Origin: Candidatus Yanofskybacteria bacterium RIFCSPLOWO2_02_FULL_41_13
GTDB taxonomy: Bacteria > Patescibacteriota > Minisyncoccia > 2-02-FULL-40-12 > GWA2-44-9
Reading direction: 5' to 3'
NCBI GenBank assembly: GCA_001795735.1
Contig: MGKQ01000023.1
Coordinates: 1-36,692, forward strand
DNA length: 36,692 bases
Of the stretch, positions 4,626 to 36,692 are shown in pieces. The position numbers and the translations under genes are program-made. The notes under the pieces were generated by a model that did not search any database, had not been told where the DNA came from, and saw only the letters and a list, made by a program, of their open reading frames with translations. Each line of letters starts with the position of its first letter. Position 1 is the first letter of the stretch.

Positions 4626-6365
4626 ATGAAAAATTCAATCGAATCAATTCGCCACTCGCTCGCCCACCTTCTAGGTGCGGCTGTTTTAGAACTTTATCCC
4701 GGTTCAAAATTAGCCATTGGTCCGGCCATTGATGACGGCTTTTATTACGATATGGAAGTTTCCGGTAAAATCTCGGATAGCGACTTGCCAAGAATAGAGA
4801 CCGAAATGCATAAAATCCTGAAAACATGGGATAAATTTGAAGAGATTAAAGAAACGTCTGCGTCGGCAAAGAAACGTTATGTCGGCAATCCTTACAAGCT
4901 CGAACTTATACAAGAACTGGCCGATACCAAAGAAAAAATGACTTCCTATAAATCGGGGCGGTTTATCGACCTCTGTCGTGGAGGCCATGTAGCAAACGCT
5001 AAAGATATAAACCCCGACGCTTTCAAGCTGTCTCATGTCGCCGGAGCCTACTGGCGCGGTGATGAGAAAAATAACCAGCTCACTAGAATTTACGGTTACG
5101 CATTTAAAACAAAGAAAGAATTAGATCATCATATAACTGTAATTGAAGAGGCTAAGAAAAGAGATCATAAAAAGCTGGGTCCCGAGTTGGATCTGTTCAC
5201 GTTTTCAGATTTGGTTGGAAGCGGCCTGCCGTTGTGGACGCCGAAAGGTACTTTAGTCCGAAACATATTGGATGATTTCGTTTGGGAGCTTCGTAAAAAA
5301 GCCGGTTATCAGCAAGTGGACATACCTCATATCACGAAAAAAGATTTATATGAGAAGAGTGGCCACTGGGAAAAGTTTAAAGACGAACTTTTTAAAATAA
5401 CTACCCGAGAAGGTCATCTTTTTATCATAAAACCTATGAACTGTCCGCACCACACGCAAATTTATGCCCGCAAACCTCACAGCTACCGTGAGCTTCCCCA
5501 AAGATATGCCAACACGACTAAAGACTACCGGGATGAACAAACGGGCGAACTCTCAGGACTTTCACGAGTCAGGGCATTTACCCAAGACGACGCCCATGTC
5601 TTCTGTCGAATGAACCAAGTTAAAGAAGAATTTTTAAAAATCTGGGATATAGTCCATGAATTTTATAAGTCATTTGGTTTTGAACTGCAGGTCAGGCTTT
5701 CCCGCCATGATCCTAAACATATGGAAAAATATATCGGCGATGAGAAGAAATGGCAATCAGCCGAGAAAATCCTGGATGAAATAATAAAAGATAAGAAAGT
5801 TAAAGCCATGGATGGTTTGGGCGAAGCGGCATTTTATGGACCAAAGTTAGACTTTTTAGCCAAAGACTCCCTCGGACGCGAATGGCAGGTGGCAACCATT
5901 CAGCTGGATATGAACATGCCGGAACGTTTTGATTTATATTGCATTAATGAAAAGGGCGAGCAGGAACGTATAGTAATGATACACGCGGCCATAATGGGCT
6001 CGATAGAGAGATTTCTTTCTATAGCTATTGAGCACTATGCTGGAGCATTCCCCGTCTGGCTTGCCCCAGTTCAAGTAGCCATTTTGCCTATAACGGATAA
6101 ACAAAATAAAGGAGCAGAGGAAGTTTCGAGTAAATTAAAAGAGGCTGGGATTAGGGTCGAGGTAAATAAAGATAACGAGACTCTTGGCAAAAAGATAAGG
6201 GCCGCTGAAACCCAGAAGATCCCCTATCTTCTCGTCATCGGAGACAAAGAAATACAAGCCGAAGCTGTTGCCGTCCGCCAGCGTAGCAAAGGCAATATGG
6301 GTCAGATAAAACTAGAAAAATTTATCAATCAAGTTTCTAAAGAAATAGAAAACCGCCTCTCCTAG
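4626..6365 (+). CDS. thrS: Threonyl-tRNA synthetase lacking the N-terminal TGS domain
   Basis: Begins at the editing domain (IRHSLAHLLGAAVLELYP..IGPAIDDGFYYD); class II motifs; MNCPHH; C-terminal anticodon-binding domain. Confidence 0.95.
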   Translation: MKNSIESIRHSLAHLLGAAVLELYPGSKLAIGPAIDDGFYYDMEVSGKISDSDLPRIETEMHKILKTWDKFEEIKETSASAKKRYVGNPYKLELIQELADTKEKMTSYKSGRFIDLCRGGHVANAKDINPDAFKLSHVAGAYWRGDEKNNQLTRIYGYAFKTKKELDHHITVIEEAKKRDHKKLGPELDLFTFSDLVGSGLPLWTPKGTLVRNILDDFVWELRKKAGYQQVDIPHITKKDLYEKSGHWEKFKDELFKITTREGHLFIIKPMNCPHHTQIYARKPHSYRELPQRYANTTKDYRDEQTGELSGLSRVRAFTQDDAHVFCRMNQVKEEFLKIWDIVHEFYKSFGFELQVRLSRHDPKHMEKYIGDEKKWQSAEKILDEIIKDKKVKAMDGLGEAAFYGPKLDFLAKDSLGREWQVATIQLDMNMPERFDLYCINEKGEQERIVMIHAAIMGSIERFLSIAIEHYAGAFPVWLAPVQVAILPITDKQNKGAEEVSSKLKEAGIRVEVNKDNETLGKKIRAAETQKIPYLLVIGDKEIQAEAVAVRQRSKGNMGQIKLEKFINQVSKEIENRLS

Positions 6366-17192: not shown

Positions 17193-18347
17193 CTAACGCA
17201 GCTCTGCTCCGAATTGTTCTGAAGTTTGTTTGTAGATTTTATCCTGAATTGGGTCTATTTCTTCGGTGGTAAGAGTGCGCTCGTTGGAGCAGTAAATTAT
17301 CCGATAGGTATAGCTGACTTTATCTTTGCCAAATTTTTCGGAATTTTCATATTTATCAAGGAGCTGGACTTCCTCCACTAGATTTCCGCCAATATCCCTA
17401 ATCAAGTCAAAATAGTTATTAGGTATAAAAGATTTGTCAACGACAAACGAGATGTCCCTGGTAATAGGAGGGTACTTTGATACTTCTTTAAATTTATTTC
17501 CCAGCTTTAACTGTTTTTTAACTCTTGGATCATCAGACCACAGTAATCTAATATCCGGCAACCCCATACTGACCATTGCCCATCTCTCTAAACCCGGCCC
17601 GAATGCCCACCCATTGTAAACTGATGAATCAACGCCCAGTTTTTCCAGAACACTTCCCTTGACCACTCCACTGCCCAATATCTCCACCCGCTCTCCATCT
17701 TTTTCTATCTCAACCTCGGTGCTTGGATGCGTATAGGGAAAAGTGTCTTCATGAAAACGGTACTTAATATTATCGCCGAATACCGCCTTAACCATTTTTA
17801 CTTCAATATCCTGAAGGTCCTGAAGAGTGATTTCTTTATTTTTCTTTGGACACAAATAGAGACCGTCTATCTGATGAAATACGTTCATGTGAAATCTATC
17901 TATCTCATCTTTTCGGTAAACCTTTCCATAGCAAAAAACTCCTATATTCTCTCCCCGTCTCATCTTTTCTTTTACCTGCCCCGAGGTCAGATAGTAATAC
18001 CACATGACCGTGGTATGGGGCCGCAAAATATGGCTATTATCCAGAAAATAAGTATCTGACTTACTTCTTGCAGGATGGTTGGAGGCAAAATCAAAAAGAT
18101 CAAAAGCGATGCCCGTGGGCACTACTTCGGGTACTTTTACAATATCAAAGTCTTTAAAATCTGGAATACTTGTCATTCTTTCAACCACTTCTTTTATGGG
18201 GCTGGCTGGCGTTCGCGTTAAATCAGGCATTTCCAAATACCTCTTTATCCTCTTAGCCTCGAAGTCGGTTCTTCTCTCAATTAATCTGATTGACTGGCTC
18301 TCTTCTTCTGATTCTATATTTATAGTTTTATTACTCTGATAAGACAT
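17193..18347 (-). CDS. pheS: Phenylalanyl-tRNA synthetase, alpha-type catalytic core fused to a C-terminal FDX-ACB domain
   Basis: Class II motifs (GKVYRKDEIDRFHMNVFHQIDGL, GWAFGPGLERWAMVSMGLPDIRLLW); C-terminal YPPITRDISFVVD...RTLTTEEIDPIQDKIYKQTSEQFGAELR matches FDX-ACB. Confidence 0.88.
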   Translation of the reverse strand: MSYQSNKTINIESEEESQSIRLIERRTDFEAKRIKRYLEMPDLTRTPASPIKEVVERMTSIPDFKDFDIVKVPEVVPTGIAFDLFDFASNHPARSKSDTYFLDNSHILRPHTTVMWYYYLTSGQVKEKMRRGENIGVFCYGKVYRKDEIDRFHMNVFHQIDGLYLCPKKNKEITLQDLQDIEVKMVKAVFGDNIKYRFHEDTFPYTHPSTEVEIEKDGERVEILGSGVVKGSVLEKLGVDSSVYNGWAFGPGLERWAMVSMGLPDIRLLWSDDPRVKKQLKLGNKFKEVSKYPPITRDISFVVDKSFIPNNYFDLIRDIGGNLVEEVQLLDKYENSEKFGKDKVSYTYRIIYCSNERTLTTEEIDPIQDKIYKQTSEQFGAELR

Positions 18348-27878: not shown

Positions 27879-29207
27879 CTAATTGTCAAGCAATAGCACT
27901 TTTTGAATAAATTTACTTAGTTCCCCGATTGGTAACCTTTCCTGTTTCGCCGTATCCCTGTCCCTGACCGTGACTGTATCGTCTTCCAAAGTTTGAAAAT
28001 CAACAGTTATGCAGTAGGGAGTGCCTATCTCGTCCTGAGAATAATATCTCTTTCCTATATTTCCCCGATCGTCCCAAGCGACATTTAAACCTGTTCTTTT
28101 TAAATCTTTAAGTATCCTCCTCGCTTTTTCTATCAACTGAGGCTTATTGGCAAGGAGCGGGAAAACCGCCGCTTTATACGGAGCAAGTTTCGGATGAAGT
28201 TTGAGAATCAATCTGTCTTTTTCTTCATAGTAAGCATTGAGTAAAAAGAAGAGGAGGGCACGATCAACACCGCCAGAAGTTTCAATAACCCACGGGATAA
28301 ATCTCTCATTTGTTTCAGAATCAAAATATGATAAGTCTTGACCGCTAAATTCAGAATGTCTCGATAAATCCCAGTCTCCCCGATGATGAATTCCCTCTGC
28401 CTCATCCCAGCCCCACGGAGTTTCGTATTCAATGTCCCAAGCCGCTTGAGCATAGTGTGCCCGTTCATCTGGAGCATGTTCCCTGAAACGTAACTTACTT
28501 TTTTTAATACCGAGATCCAAATACCACTTCATACGTAAATCTTTCATCTCATTGAACATTCCCATGGCTTCTTTTTCATTCGGTTTGACATAAGTTTGCA
28601 TCTCCATCTGCTCAAACTCTCTGGATCGAAAAATAAAGTTTCTGGGAGTTATCTCGTTGCGAAATGCTTTTCCGATCTGAGCGATACCAAAGGGGATCTT
28701 AGGGCGCATTGAGTCAAGTACATTTTTGAAGTTAACGTGAACACCCTGAGTAATTTCTCCTCGCAAGAATACTGTCGTTTTCTCCCCCTCTACCACTCCA
28801 AGTTTTGCTTCGACTAAAATATTAAACTGTTTGGGCTCAGTCCATTCTACTTTTTCTTTTTTCTTAGCATGCGTCTGTTCATGCTCTTTTATATCCTCCG
28901 CTTTATCAGCACGGAAACGTTCATGACATGTTTTACATTCAACAAGCGGGTCAGTAAATGAAGCCACGTGGCCCGACGCTTCCCAAACCTTCGGATTCAT
29001 CATGATTGATGCGTTCATGCCAAAAACATTCTCACGGTCCTGTACCATATACTCCCACCAAGATTGTTTTAAATTAAATTTGAGCTCTGTTCCAAGAGGC
29101 CCATAATCCCAAGTCCCCCTTAACCCGCCATAAATCTCCGAACCAGGGAATATAAATCCCCTTCGTTTACATAAGCTGACAACTTTTTCTAATAAATTAT
29201 TATCCAT
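27879..29207 (-). CDS. glyS: Glycyl-tRNA synthetase, homodimeric (eukaryote/archaea-like) type
   Basis: RRGFIFPGSEIYGGLRGTWDYGPLG, FRNEITPRNFIFRSREFEQMEMQ, PWVIETSGGVDRALLFFLL. Confidence 0.95.
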   Translation of the reverse strand: MDNNLLEKVVSLCKRRGFIFPGSEIYGGLRGTWDYGPLGTELKFNLKQSWWEYMVQDRENVFGMNASIMMNPKVWEASGHVASFTDPLVECKTCHERFRADKAEDIKEHEQTHAKKKEKVEWTEPKQFNILVEAKLGVVEGEKTTVFLRGEITQGVHVNFKNVLDSMRPKIPFGIAQIGKAFRNEITPRNFIFRSREFEQMEMQTYVKPNEKEAMGMFNEMKDLRMKWYLDLGIKKSKLRFREHAPDERAHYAQAAWDIEYETPWGWDEAEGIHHRGDWDLSRHSEFSGQDLSYFDSETNERFIPWVIETSGGVDRALLFFLLNAYYEEKDRLILKLHPKLAPYKAAVFPLLANKPQLIEKARRILKDLKRTGLNVAWDDRGNIGKRYYSQDEIGTPYCITVDFQTLEDDTVTVRDRDTAKQERLPIGELSKFIQKVLLLDN

Positions 29208-31997: not shown

Positions 31998-32585
31998 TTA
32001 ATTTTTTCCTGCCATCTTTAGTAATTCCTCAAGAGCAATCGGGAGCTCTATAACCCCATCCTCCCCGGAAATATGACCCTTGCCTCTTTCAAAAATAATT
32101 TTCGCCCCTAAGTTGTTTTTAAATAATTCGGCGTCACTTATCGGGACATACGGATCATTGTCCGAGTTAATAAGTACGAACTTATGCGTGTGCTGCTTGA
32201 TCTTATTAAAATCAATCCGCGTATTTATCCACTCATCAGCAATTTCTTTAGTATAATTTTCATCCCAAGTATCGTCTGTCAGGTTAAACCATCCAGCCAC
32301 AAATATAGCGCCTCCAGCCTTTTGATCGCTGGGAAGCTGTTCCAGATACCTCATGATTGTCTGACATCCTATACTGTGCCCGATAAAATAGGTATTTTTA
32401 TCAGCGGTACCAACTATTTTATCAAGATGTGAGGTCCAAGTACTTATTCTTGGATTGTCCGTATCTGGCATATTTGGAGTAAAGACTTTAAAACCGCTAC
32501 CCTCTAAATTATTCTTAAGCCAAACTAGCCATCCCTCACCGGGATTACCGCCCCAACCATGAATTATATAAACTCGCTTAGGCAT
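31998..32585 (-). CDS. RBBP9/YdeN-like serine hydrolase
   Basis: IIHGWGGNPGEGWLVWLKNNLE, FIGHSIGCQTIMRYLEQL, C-terminal GKGHIS. Confidence 0.85.
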   Translation of the reverse strand: MPKRVYIIHGWGGNPGEGWLVWLKNNLEGSGFKVFTPNMPDTDNPRISTWTSHLDKIVGTADKNTYFIGHSIGCQTIMRYLEQLPSDQKAGGAIFVAGWFNLTDDTWDENYTKEIADEWINTRIDFNKIKQHTHKFVLINSDNDPYVPISDAELFKNNLGAKIIFERGKGHISGEDGVIELPIALEELLKMAGKN

Positions 32586-32975
32586 TTATATATGCTGACG
32601 GACAAGGTCTTTGATTTTGTCGTGGGAAAATTCGTATTGACTTAGGTCTTCCCCTTTTATCCAGGCGTAGTCTTGGTGTTCGTCGCTTAATTTTATTTCT
32701 TGGCTACCTTCAATTTTACAAGCAAAAGTTACTATGTAGGTTTTTCCGCTCTCGCTTACAGTCACATTCGCTATCTCTTCAACTGAAAAGTTCTGAATGC
32801 CAGTTTCTTCTCTAACCTCACGCCGTAACCCCTCCAGCCAAGTTTCGCTATTCTCTAATCTTCCACCAGGCAACATCCACTTATTACCTTTTTTCAGTAT
32901 TAAAATATCTCCATCAACATTCTGAATTATAGCGTTCTGATTAACTTCAAATAATTTATGCTTTTCCATGGTCAT
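32586..32975 (-). CDS. NUDIX hydrolase
   Basis: Nudix box GGRLENSETWLEGLRREVREETGI. Confidence 0.9.
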   Translation of the reverse strand: MTMEKHKLFEVNQNAIIQNVDGDILILKKGNKWMLPGGRLENSETWLEGLRREVREETGIQNFSVEEIANVTVSESGKTYIVTFACKIEGSQEIKLSDEHQDYAWIKGEDLSQYEFSHDKIKDLVRQHI

Positions 32976-32989
32976 TAAATAAAGCGTCA

Positions 32990-33152
32990 GAAAATAAAGC
33001 GCAACTGATTACCTTTCGGGACCATCTAGTCGCCGGATTGATTGGTTTGTCAAAGATCTCTCCTTGACAAAATCCGGCGACGATCGAGTGAGTCTTCCCG
33101 CTGGAGGAAGACGAGCGCGTCCCGAAAGGTAATTAGTGAAAGCTTTATTTTC
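32990..33152. repeat. Nested palindromic element between the NUDIX gene and ileS
   Basis: GAAAATAAAGC/GCTTTATTTTC, ATTACCTTTCGGGAC/GTCCCGAAAGGTAAT, GTCGCCGGATT/AATCCGGCGAC, TTGTCAA/TTGACAA in nested order. Confidence 0.9.
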
Positions 33153-36100
33153 TAACTCCCACCCAAATCTTTTTTCCTGGTGATACCTCGAATTCTTTCT
33201 CTACGTTGTATGCCCTTTTTCCTGCCGGACCAGAAACAAATTCTTTGAGCAAAGCATCCTTCTTTATCTCATCCGCCCATTCATGGATAGCGGAAGACAA
33301 CTCCCCGTCATCCGAATGCCATTGACCAAATATTTTCTCATTCAACTTATACTTAGCCTCTTTTCTCATGTCTTGAATCTGGCGAATTAGTTCTCTGGCA
33401 TAACCCTCGTTTATCAAGACCTGACTAAGCTCTATGTCTAACATAACTTTTTGCTCTTGTTTACTGCTGTATGCGATTTCTTTAATATTTAGTTCTTCTT
33501 TTACTAGATCTAGTAGTTCACTTGGGATTTGGGATTTGGGATTTGGGATTTGAAGAAGCGTTAGCTTCGCTAATGGCTGTCTGACCTTCATCTGTTTCTC
33601 TTTTCTCAGGGCCAACCCGGATGCAACGACACTCCTTACCTCTTCCATTTCCTCCTCCAATTTTTTATTAACTAACTTTTTATCTGATTTCGGCCAATCA
33701 GCTAAATGTATGGACTCTGACTCATTTTGATTTTTGATATTTGATTTTTGATTTAATCTCCGGTATATATCCTCCGCAATAAATGGAGTAAATGGAGATA
33801 TGACCTTAGATAATTCTATGAGTAGAAATCTCAGGAGGCCCATCGCTTCTTTTCTTTTTCGTGAGCGCCTAAGCCACCAGTTGGATAAATCCTCCACCGT
33901 AAATTTCTCAATTGCTCTTGCCGCCGTTGTCGGATCATATTTATCTAAAGCATCAGAGACTTCAGCTATAAGGCCGTTTAATTTAGATACTACCCACTTA
34001 TCCAATAAATGTGACTCTTCGGTAAGCTCAGGGTGAATTGTATCGCCCTCAGCACGATACAATTCATAGAACCTGACACAATTCTGCAGAGTAAAAATAA
34101 ATCCTTTCAGCTTTCCTTCGACATCTTTTAGCACAAAATTTTTATATTCCCCCGGCTGATTAATCGTATAGAAATACCATCTGGCCGCATCGGCTCCGAC
34201 TTTATCCATTACCTCAAAGGGTGAGACAACATTGCCTTTTGATTTAGACATTTTTTTACTCTTCTCATCAAGAACGTGCCCCAGGGACATGACATTTTTA
34301 TATGGAGTTCCCTTGCCTAATAAGGTCGAGACGGCAAGCATTGTGTAAAACCACCCTCTTGTTTGATCGATTCCTTCAACAATAAAATCTGCCGGAAACT
34401 GCTCTTTAAACATCTTCCCGCTATTTTCTGTTTCTAATTTTTGCTCTTTGCTCTTTGATTTTTGATCTTTAAAAGGCCAGTGCCATTGGGCAAAAGGCAT
34501 TGCTCCGGAATCAAACCAGACATCTATCAGGTCCAGTATTTTTTTCATTGAAGCGCCGCAATCTGAACATTTAAGATAAACATCGTCTATAAAAGGGCGG
34601 TGTAAATCCAATTCTCCGTATTCATTTCTAGGAATACGCTTCCATAATAACTTAGAAAAGTATCCGAGACCCGCGTAAGCATATTTTTTACCATCAGTGT
34701 CTTCCATAAACTCATCAGCTCTAGCTCCGGCCGCAATACCGTTTAAAAGCCAAAGCGGATCGCCATGGCTGACTATAAGAATATTCTTGCCAGAATACTT
34801 CCCTTCCATATCACTCATAAAGTCAAACATTCTTCTTCTTACATCATTCCAGCTCTCTCCCGTCTCGTGAACCTTATCCTCAAAGTCCTTTCTGGTATCT
34901 TTCATCGGACAAGAACTGTGGGGTTTTCCATCACAGCCACCATGATAAATTTCACCGAGCTTATCGTCTTTATGAATTTTAAGGTGGAGTAATTTGGCTA
35001 CGATCTCTGCCGTCTCAGTAGTCCGAATAAAGGGCGAGCTGTAAATAAGATCTATGCCGTGATTATTCTTAATCAGTTCGGCATTTTTTTCTATCTGTTT
35101 CCTTCCCTCCGGGGTCAAGTGATATTTATCTAACTTCAACTCGGAACTGATAATCATCTTCTCCTTCTCATCTCTGCTGGTATGGCTATGCCGAAGAATA
35201 TAGTAGTTATTTTTCTTAGCTGAAGCTACGGTGCTGAATTTTTCCATTTCAGCAACAGAACCGATAACTTTATAGCTGTCACATTTTTGACACTTCCATA
35301 TCGGAAGCGGCGTCCCCCAGTAACGCTCACGCGAAAAAGCCCAATCCTTCCCTTCTTTAAGCCACTGACCGAATCTTCCTTCTTTTATATGCTCCGGAAA
35401 CCAATTAATCTTCTGATTATTCTTCAAAAGATCATCCTTGACTGCCGACATTTTAATAAACCAGGAGCTTTTAGCATAGTACAGAAGAGGAGAATCGCAC
35501 CGCCAGCAAAAGGGATAGTCATGCTCAAAGTCTTTGACTTTGAGCAATAAATTTCTAATTTCTAATTGTCTAATTATTAAATTTTCTGCCTCCTTACTCT
35601 TTACATATTTCCCGTCCAATTCCTTGCTCACGCCGACAAATTTACCCAGCTCATCAACAGTGTGAAATTTAGGCAATTCAAGCTTAGTACCCAAATTATA
35701 ATCATCTTCACCATACATAACTGCCGTATGAACGACGCCTGTACCTTCCTCAGTAGAAACAAAATCAGCGTCATAAACTTTATATGAGTTTCTTGATTTA
35801 AGCTCTTTTATGCCGAAAAGGGGTTCATATTCTAAACCGACAAGGTCAGAACCCTTGTAGCTTGTAGCTTGTAGCTTGTAGCTTGTAGCGCCCCCAAAAA
35901 CTTTTTCAACTAAGTCCTTTGCGACTATAAAATACTCCGCCCCAACTTCCGCTAGGACATAATCGATATCTTTCCCTACAGCTAAAGCTACGTTTCCAGG
36001 AAGAGTCCAAGGCGTAGTAGTCCAAGCAAGTATGTATAATTTTGAATTTTTTGGAACTTGAAATTTGTTTGGAAATTGGAAATTGTCCCGATTGCTTCGC

Positions 36101-36692
36101 AATCGAGGATCCGCGATTCGCGAAAGCGAATCGGGAGAAATTGGAAATTTAACAATTACGGATCTGTCCGTAATTGTTTTGTATCCTTGTGCCACTTCAT
36201 GAGACGACAGAGATGTTCCGCAGCGAGTGCAGAACGGCACGACTTTATGGGCAAGATAGAGGAGTTTCTTTTTCCAAATCTGCTGAATAATGTGCCAAAG
36301 GCTCTCTATATAGTCATTCTGATAAGTTATATATGGATTTTTCAGGTCAAGCCAAAAGCCCATTTTTCTGGTCATTTCTTCCCATTCGCTTTTATACTTC
36401 CAAACGCTTTCTTTGGCTTTTTTATTAAACTTGCCAATACCATAGTCCTCGATATCTTTCTTATTTTTAAACCCGAGCTCTTTTTCTATCTCAATCTCTA
36501 CGGGTAATCCATGGGTATCCCAGCCGGCTTTACGCAAAACAAAAAAACCCCGCATTACTTTATAGCGGCAGAACAGATCTTTAAATGCCCGACCTAAGAA
36601 ATGGTGAATGCCGGGCCTACCGTTTGCCGTTGGCGGACCCTCAAAAAACACAAAGCGTTTTTTACCCTGAGCCAGTCGAAGAGCCAGAGATT
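33145..36692 (-). CDS. ileS: Isoleucyl-tRNA synthetase with embedded histidine phosphatase domain; 5' end truncated by the window
   Basis: FFEGPPTANGRPGIHHFLGRAFKD, LAWTTTPWTLPGNVALAV, RYWGTPLPIWKC, DVWFDSGAMPFAQ, KKMSKSKGN. Reading frame continues upstream of the GTG at 36651 (SLALRLAQGKKRFVFFEGPP), so that codon is probably internal. Confidence 0.95.
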   Translation of the reverse strand, partial: SLALRLAQGKKRFVFFEGPPTANGRPGIHHFLGRAFKDLFCRYKVMRGFFVLRKAGWDTHGLPVEIEIEKELGFKNKKDIEDYGIGKFNKKAKESVWKYKSEWEEMTRKMGFWLDLKNPYITYQNDYIESLWHIIQQIWKKKLLYLAHKVVPFCTRCGTSLSSHEVAQGYKTITDRSVIVKFPISPDSLSRIADPRLRSNRDNFQFPNKFQVPKNSKLYILAWTTTPWTLPGNVALAVGKDIDYVLAEVGAEYFIVAKDLVEKVFGGATSYKLQATSYKGSDLVGLEYEPLFGIKELKSRNSYKVYDADFVSTEEGTGVVHTAVMYGEDDYNLGTKLELPKFHTVDELGKFVGVSKELDGKYVKSKEAENLIIRQLEIRNLLLKVKDFEHDYPFCWRCDSPLLYYAKSSWFIKMSAVKDDLLKNNQKINWFPEHIKEGRFGQWLKEGKDWAFSRERYWGTPLPIWKCQKCDSYKVIGSVAEMEKFSTVASAKKNNYYILRHSHTSRDEKEKMIISSELKLDKYHLTPEGRKQIEKNAELIKNNHGIDLIYSSPFIRTTETAEIVAKLLHLKIHKDDKLGEIYHGGCDGKPHSSCPMKDTRKDFEDKVHETGESWNDVRRRMFDFMSDMEGKYSGKNILIVSHGDPLWLLNGIAAGARADEFMEDTDGKKYAYAGLGYFSKLLWKRIPRNEYGELDLHRPFIDDVYLKCSDCGASMKKILDLIDVWFDSGAMPFAQWHWPFKDQKSKSKEQKLETENSGKMFKEQFPADFIVEGIDQTRGWFYTMLAVSTLLGKGTPYKNVMSLGHVLDEKSKKMSKSKGNVVSPFEVMDKVGADAARWYFYTINQPGEYKNFVLKDVEGKLKGFIFTLQNCVRFYELYRAEGDTIHPELTEESHLLDKWVVSKLNGLIAEVSDALDKYDPTTAARAIEKFTVEDLSNWWLRRSRKRKEAMGLLRFLLIELSKVISPFTPFIAEDIYRRLNQKSNIKNQNESESIHLADWPKSDKKLVNKKLEEEMEEVRSVVASGLALRKEKQMKVRQPLAKLTLLQIPNPKSQIPSELLDLVKEELNIKEIAYSSKQEQKVMLDIELSQVLINEGYARELIRQIQDMRKEAKYKLNEKIFGQWHSDDGELSSAIHEWADEIKKDALLKEFVSGPAGKRAYNVEKEFEVSPGKKIWVGVRK
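33524..33551 (-). repeat. (GGGATTT)4 perfect heptamers in ileS
   Basis: Encodes QIPNPKSQIP. Confidence 0.9.
33725..33752 (-). repeat. Four heptamers TTTTGAT TTTTGAT ATTTGAT TTTTGAT in ileS
   Basis: Read directly. Confidence 0.8.
34440..34474 (-). repeat. Heptamers TTTGCTC TTTGCTC TTTGATT TTTGATC TTTAAAA in ileS
   Basis: Encodes FKDQKSKSKEQK. Confidence 0.8.
34640..35220 (-). other. Histidine phosphatase (phosphoglycerate mutase-like) domain inserted within ileS
   Basis: YYILRHSHTSRDEKE, DLIYSSPFIRTTETAEIVAKLL, KLGEIYHG, ILIVSHGDPLWLL; flanked by IleRS motifs RYWGTPLPIWKCQKC and ELDLHRPFIDDVYLKCSDCG. Confidence 0.9.
35855..35889 (-). repeat. (TTGTAGC)5 perfect heptamers in ileS
   Basis: Encodes ATSYKLQATSYKG. 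Confidence 0.95.
36086..36136 (-). repeat. 51-bp palindromic insertion in ileS, flanked by GAAATTGGAAATT-type heptamers
   Basis: TCCCGATTGCTTCGCAATCGAGGATCCGCGATTCGCGAAAGCGAATCGGGA. Confidence 0.9.

Follow-up and report, generated by a model that had tools for sequence, protein, structure and literature searches.

The window (the whole stretch of 36,692 nucleotides analyzed here) belongs to a Yanofskybacteria genome (Parcubacteria/Patescibacteria). Its ileS gene is a single unbroken frame on the minus strand, positions 33145-36690, which encodes 1181 amino acids; the 5' end falls slightly outside the window, and the frame measures 1187 amino acids from stop to stop in the genome. The product is the only isoleucyl-tRNA synthetase (IleRS) of the host genome. 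It scored above the cut-off of the NCBIfam ileS model TIGR00392 (818 vs. 621 bits), contained both the editing and the anticodon domain by which an IleRS is recognized, with a match to PF08264, and carried the IleRS signature motifs KMSKS (34240-34254) and GIHH (36601-36612), the latter an altered HIGH signature of the GXHH type. These features, and all parts of the gene described below, lie on the minus strand. AlphaFold2 modeled the full-length protein with a pLDDT of 85 and a pTM of 0.77, and the top four Foldseek matches of this model were all IleRS2 of Priestia megaterium, the best being 8c8v. By these matches and its GXHH motif, the window enzyme is a type 2 IleRS.

Pfam showed that the tRNA-synt_1 domain of this protein is interrupted by a histidine phosphatase (HP) domain, His_Phos_1 (PF00300), at residues 497-660 (34711-35202), with a score of 100 bits against a cut-off of 21.7 and an E-value of 1.8e-28; the remainder of the synthetase and then the anticodon-binding domain follow. 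From alignment with empty-site relatives, the inserted segment as a whole spans residues 486-692 (34615-35235), with WKCQKCDSYKVIGSVAEMEKF before it and ELDLHRPFIDDVYLKCSDCG after it. It separates the first CxxC pair (C467 and C470; 35281-35292) of the zinc finger located after RYWGTPLPIW from the second (C708 and C711; 34558-34569). IleRSs with an empty site have a loop of 8-15 amino acids where the HP domain sits. By our own assignment, this zinc finger is the Cys-rich CP3 module in the nomenclature of PMC10810186. Three more synthetase genes are present in the window, at 4626-6365 (plus strand), 17193-18347 (minus strand) and 27879-29207 (minus strand); two have a class II core and one is of the phenylalanyl type, and no HP domain was found in any of the three.

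Modeled alone, the insert gave a pLDDT of 91 and a pTM of 0.89. Its best Foldseek matches were the histidine phosphatases PspA, PhoE and CobC, with E-values of about 1e-11 to 1e-12, and the nearest solved structures were phosphoserine phosphatase, PhoE and CobC. All catalytic residues are present: Arg500-His501 of the RH motif (35188-35193), which reads RHS here and RHG in most relatives; the second Arg, Arg556, in SSPFIRT (35023-35025); the acidic residue Glu580 in LGEI (34951-34953); the conserved Glu612 in GES (34855-34857); and the second His, His642, in the signature SHGDPLW (34750-34770). By profile, fold and catalytic residues, the insert is a complete branch-1 histidine phosphatase. 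It scored well below the cut-off in all NCBIfam HP models (67 of 163 bits for TIGR03162, 73 of 225 for NF038349) and under the curated equivalog cut-offs of the known subfamilies CobC, PhoE/PspA, dPGM and SixA; the best match among the HP models was the RNase H/acid phosphatase fusion model. The insert lineage typically shows HGxPxW, whereas most stand-alone HP relatives carry Arg at the Trp position.

These results bear out most of what an earlier sequence-only reading of this DNA had described, namely one uninterrupted frame in which tRNA-synt_1 is split by His_Phos_1, a histidine phosphatase fold, and a set of quoted motifs containing every catalytic residue. Two of its placements were sharpened. 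The span that it gave for the domain, 34640-35220, was nearly right, the actual boundaries being those of the inserted segment above, and the loop before DLHRP in which it put the domain is, more exactly, the tip of the zinc finger between the two CxxC pairs.

We examined conservation in 116 inserts at this site (site A). The RH motif, the second Arg and the conserved Glu corresponding to Glu612 were present in all 116, the second His in all 115 in which the column was present, and the acidic residue was Glu in 113 and Asp in 3. This constancy is confined to few positions: the median pairwise identity of the inserts was 35%, only 8 of 215 alignment columns were fully invariant, four of them catalytic, and the sequence outside the catalytic pocket varied strongly. 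The dN/dS values of the inserts, determined by the Nei-Gojobori method from pairs whose synonymous changes were not fully saturated, were 0.08-0.15; two tandem HP copies of one IleRS gave 0.09 and 0.10, and stand-alone HP copies 0.15-0.17. Several of these pairs were near saturation, and the values are therefore rough. A degenerate or inert domain was rejected, given that the catalytic residues are invariant and dN/dS is about 0.1.

An IleRS frame with the HP domain at this site was found in 41 of the 45 genomes of the order, or 41 of the 43 that could be assessed; one of the other two had no detectable ileS (G003), and in the second the gene was cut at a contig end (G026). Two genomes, G018 and G039, had intact but uninserted IleRSs of 946 and 972 amino acids, so the HP domain can be dispensed with in some backgrounds. 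Across the phylum, 20 of 133 well-completed genomes had an IleRS split at the HP point with a frame of more than 1100 amino acids; they include all 9 genomes of the host's class, and the HP domain was directly confirmed in 15 of the 20. When the best 80 matches among named genomes were inspected, 73 lay inside IleRS. The lineages represented among these 73 were Yanofsky-, Nealson-, Azam-, Specht-, Colwell-, Harrison-, Nomura-, Taylor-, Adler-, Campbell-, Kaiser-, Uhr- and Kuenenbacteria, and the closest named relatives of the window among the matches listed were Yanofskybacteria. HP in IleRS is common to most of the Parcubacteria lineages sampled, and it may also occur outside the phylum. The sequence-only reading had considered that the insertion might be an assembly chimera. 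Because 40 further genomes of the order and 73 of the best 80 matches show the same junction, which thus recurs in dozens of independent assemblies, we rejected this explanation. In one genome (G012), ileS is broken over two contig ends (L019 and L029, on contigs C11 and C32), both of which have an HP copy; the two copies differ, which may reflect tandem HP domains or a strain mixture.

The remaining 7 of the best 80 matches were outside IleRS. Each is a stand-alone HP gene that immediately precedes an uninserted ileS. The distances from the HP gene to the first Met codon of ileS were -10, -4, -4, -4, +1, +4 and +41 nucleotides. Wherever the upstream region was present, argS lay ahead of the HP gene, and in four cases it was directly adjacent, giving the order argS-HP-ileS. 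All 7 copies kept the HGxPLW signature. In the phylogenetic tree, the stand-alone copies nest within the inserts (AU p 2.7e-5 against their exclusion), suggesting that the HP domain was probably released from IleRS and retained beside ileS. The opposite order, a stand-alone HP gene as ancestor of the insert, is disfavored by the same placement, in a tree rooted without an external reference. The IleRSs of the genomes with stand-alone HP genes fell into at least 2 clades, mixed with inserted IleRSs. Furthermore, all HP domains of family f67 formed one clade (100/100), whereas their IleRS backbones lay in different clades; the HP domain thus seems to have been kept more persistently than the synthetase around it.

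HP domains were also found at other sites and in other proteins. The IleRSs of family f84 have a second, independently derived HP domain in tandem, and in two IleRSs (L053 and L154) an HP domain lies close to where the anticodon domain begins; the L154 enzyme (L154:1138-5490, minus strand) combines this HP domain with a GNAT acetyltransferase. An IleRS of 1572 amino acids (L064:3167-7882, plus strand) bears three HP domains at three sites, and each of them preserves the RH motif, the second Arg and the second His. Seven valyl-tRNA synthetases (ValRSs) of the phylum carry HP domains (L047, L050, L048, L063, L150, L151 and L153), and the ValRS identity was checked with NCBIfam in 5 of the 7. One of them (L153) has two HP domains, two (L047 and L050) also have a serine hydrolase, and L047 has a HAD hydrolase as well. 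Most of the off-site HP domains of IleRS and ValRS fell outside the main insert clade, in a tree whose deep branches are weakly supported. In the phylum, HP is also fused to an MFS transporter (L145), a 2-hydroxyacid dehydrogenase (L146) and VTT-domain membrane proteins (L147-L149). Fusion of this domain is therefore promiscuous, and fusion alone does not prove a link to translation; what supports the link is the retention of the HP domain and its coupling to ileS.

In the window, ileS is followed directly by a Nudix gene and a gene for an RBBP9-like serine hydrolase (31998-32975, minus strand). The serine hydrolase was also found near ileS in about 10 other loci, and the L047 and L050 ValRSs contain related domains as inserts. 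The Nudix gene was rejected as a conserved partner, no close relative of it being found near ileS in other loci.

Taken together, these data suggest, with a probability of about 0.7, that the HP domain is an active phosphatase kept for work done together with IleRS. This reading is based on the invariance of the catalytic residues, the purifying selection, the copies coupled to ileS and the recurrence of the insertion in IleRS and ValRS. Counting against it are the promiscuous HP fusions, the case of mycobacterial MutT1 described below, the uninserted IleRSs of G018 and G039 and the variable sequence outside the pocket. The sequence-only reading had held that the insert may be catalytically active. 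With more than 100 inserts invariant at the catalytic residues, purifying selection and operonic stand-alone copies, it is probably so. Support for the coupling to aminoacylation that was also proposed there is wholly indirect and comes from the association with ileS and the recurrent insertion into IleRS and ValRS; the nucleotide, metabolite and tRNA end named in that reading are possible substrates.

We propose that a complete and presumably competent phosphatase is held at the zinc-finger tip of the cell's only IleRS, and that selection would keep it because its activity is used together with that enzyme. By the chemistry of the family, His501 would take the phosphate while Arg500, Arg556 and His642 hold it, and Glu580 would serve as acid/base, after which hydrolysis would follow. 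The domain may dephosphorylate a small molecule made at the synthetic site or competing for it; candidates are a nucleotide released as a by-product when the amino acid is activated, a nucleotide that has been damaged, or an inhibitor that carries phosphate. Our first choice of substrate, a guess with the odds somewhat against it, is a small phosphorylated molecule in or close to the active site. More tentatively, the parcubacterial IleRS could be viewed as bifunctional, its nested phosphatase carrying out a hitherto undescribed step akin to proofreading or damage control on a phosphorylated intermediate, a by-product or a tRNA end of aminoacylation, and insertion of hydrolases into the catalytic half would have been repeated in IleRS and ValRS.

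Several other explanations were weighed. The HP domain could be a metabolic passenger, a general phosphatase like PhoE or PspA whose substrate has nothing to do with aminoacylation and to which IleRS is merely a carrier or a means of constant expression. The nearest solved structures and the HP fusions to unrelated proteins fit this explanation, but a passenger would not be expected to recur in IleRS and ValRS or to remain coupled to ileS after its release, and a stand-alone HP gene and an independent phosphoglycerate mutase are already present in the genome; we consider it rather unlikely. Alternatively, the domain might remove a phosphate, possibly one added by a toxin, from the acceptor end of tRNA-Ile and so permit charging. 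Its location would suit this role, as it lies in a class Ia insertion module in the catalytic half, and zinc fingers of this kind have been linked to aminoacylation (PMC10810186). The best NCBIfam HP match, the RNase H/acid phosphatase fusion model, also points toward RNA. However, no RNA-binding signature was identified in the insert, and branch-1 histidine phosphatases are mostly known to act on small molecules and proteins; a tRNA-end phosphatase is therefore improbable in our judgment. We regard as equally improbable that the HP domain, like the GNAT, HAD and serine hydrolase domains elsewhere, inactivates phosphorylated or adenylate-like antibiotics directed against IleRS or ValRS. The combinations of GNAT and HP in the L154 IleRS, of HAD, serine hydrolase and HP in the L047 ValRS and of serine hydrolase and HP in L050 are consistent with detoxification, and the window enzyme is of type 2 with the GXHH motif, which is found only in IleRS2, where mupirocin hyper-resistance results (PMC10485003). 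But the HP domain does not track GXHH: 29 inserted IleRSs had HxGH and 28 had GxHH, so a link between the HP domain and mupirocin hyper-resistance was rejected. Near-universal retention across an order would also be unusual for a resistance trait, and we know of no phosphorylated IleRS inhibitor.

Some histidine phosphatases, such as SixA and PGAM5, act on proteins (PMC12934123), and the HP domain could likewise undo the phosphorylation of IleRS or of some other protein, such as might be caused by toxin kinases acting on synthetases. Being tethered to its target would account for its retention both in cis and in the operon, but neither a phosphosite nor a partner kinase was identified, and the chance that this is its role seems slim. 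The idea that the insert replaces a missing inorganic pyrophosphatase is in line with the host genome (G000, contigs C1-C26; completeness 97.8%), in which none of PF00719, PF03030 and PF02833 was matched. Neither the host nor G018 showed a match to a soluble pyrophosphatase of family I, to one of family II (DHHA2) or to a membrane enzyme. However, when the three families were searched in the 45 genomes of the order, no complementary pattern appeared. The membrane enzyme is present in 29 of the 45, nearly all of which also have the insert, and G018, which is 100% complete, has neither the insert nor any of the three families; a role as the cell's pyrophosphatase was therefore rejected as very unlikely. 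Replacement of phosphoglycerate mutase is equally unlikely because PF01676 was matched in 36 of the 45 genomes, the host included. Lastly, the loops of class Ia zinc fingers tolerate insertions, so the segment might be an inert structural spacer, or else an artefact of assembly. The invariant catalytic residues, the low dN/dS, the intact stand-alone copies and the recurrence of the junction in independent assemblies leave this explanation hardly credible.

Few enzymes have been studied as much as the aminoacyl-tRNA synthetases. In the open-access full texts searched, we came across no account of an HP domain within a synthetase, and a recent catalogue of synthetase insertion modules lists no phosphatase (PMC10810186). 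The component families are known; their nesting and its persistence appear to be undescribed in the open literature searched. A conserved, active-looking phosphatase in an essential synthetase, present in a large part of the candidate phyla radiation and kept beside ileS when released, would imply that the charging of isoleucine includes a phosphate-linked step for which no one has yet looked. These HP-bearing synthetases also offer a natural test case for the nesting of enzyme domains.

The window enzyme can be compared with several known systems. It shares the complete architecture of IleRS2, as in 8c8v of P. megaterium, and the GXHH motif also known there (PMC10485003), but differs in having about 200 amino acids of HP nested in its second zinc finger. 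The insert, in turn, resembles PhoE, PspA and CobC in fold, RH motif, second Arg, acidic residue and second His, but is nested inside a synthetase. In mycobacterial MutT1, an HP domain is likewise joined to another enzyme; there, however, the partner is Nudix, and the HP domain was not the active phosphatase in assays despite its RHG motif, which was not needed for the measured phosphatase activities (PMC11784022). An extra small-molecule enzyme domain on IleRS is also known from the IleRS with GNAT (NF040702), in which the added domain is an acetyltransferase; the window protein lacks a GNAT domain and scored under the cut-off of that model (269 of 1999 bits). A parallel in design is the CP1 post-transfer editing domain of IleRS, ValRS and LeuRS, which is also an enzyme domain nested in a class Ia zinc finger, though for most enzymes of this class it is not the finger that holds HP here but the other one (PMC10810186). 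Unlike the HP domain, CP1 is a deacylase with a different fold and chemistry and is universal in its family.
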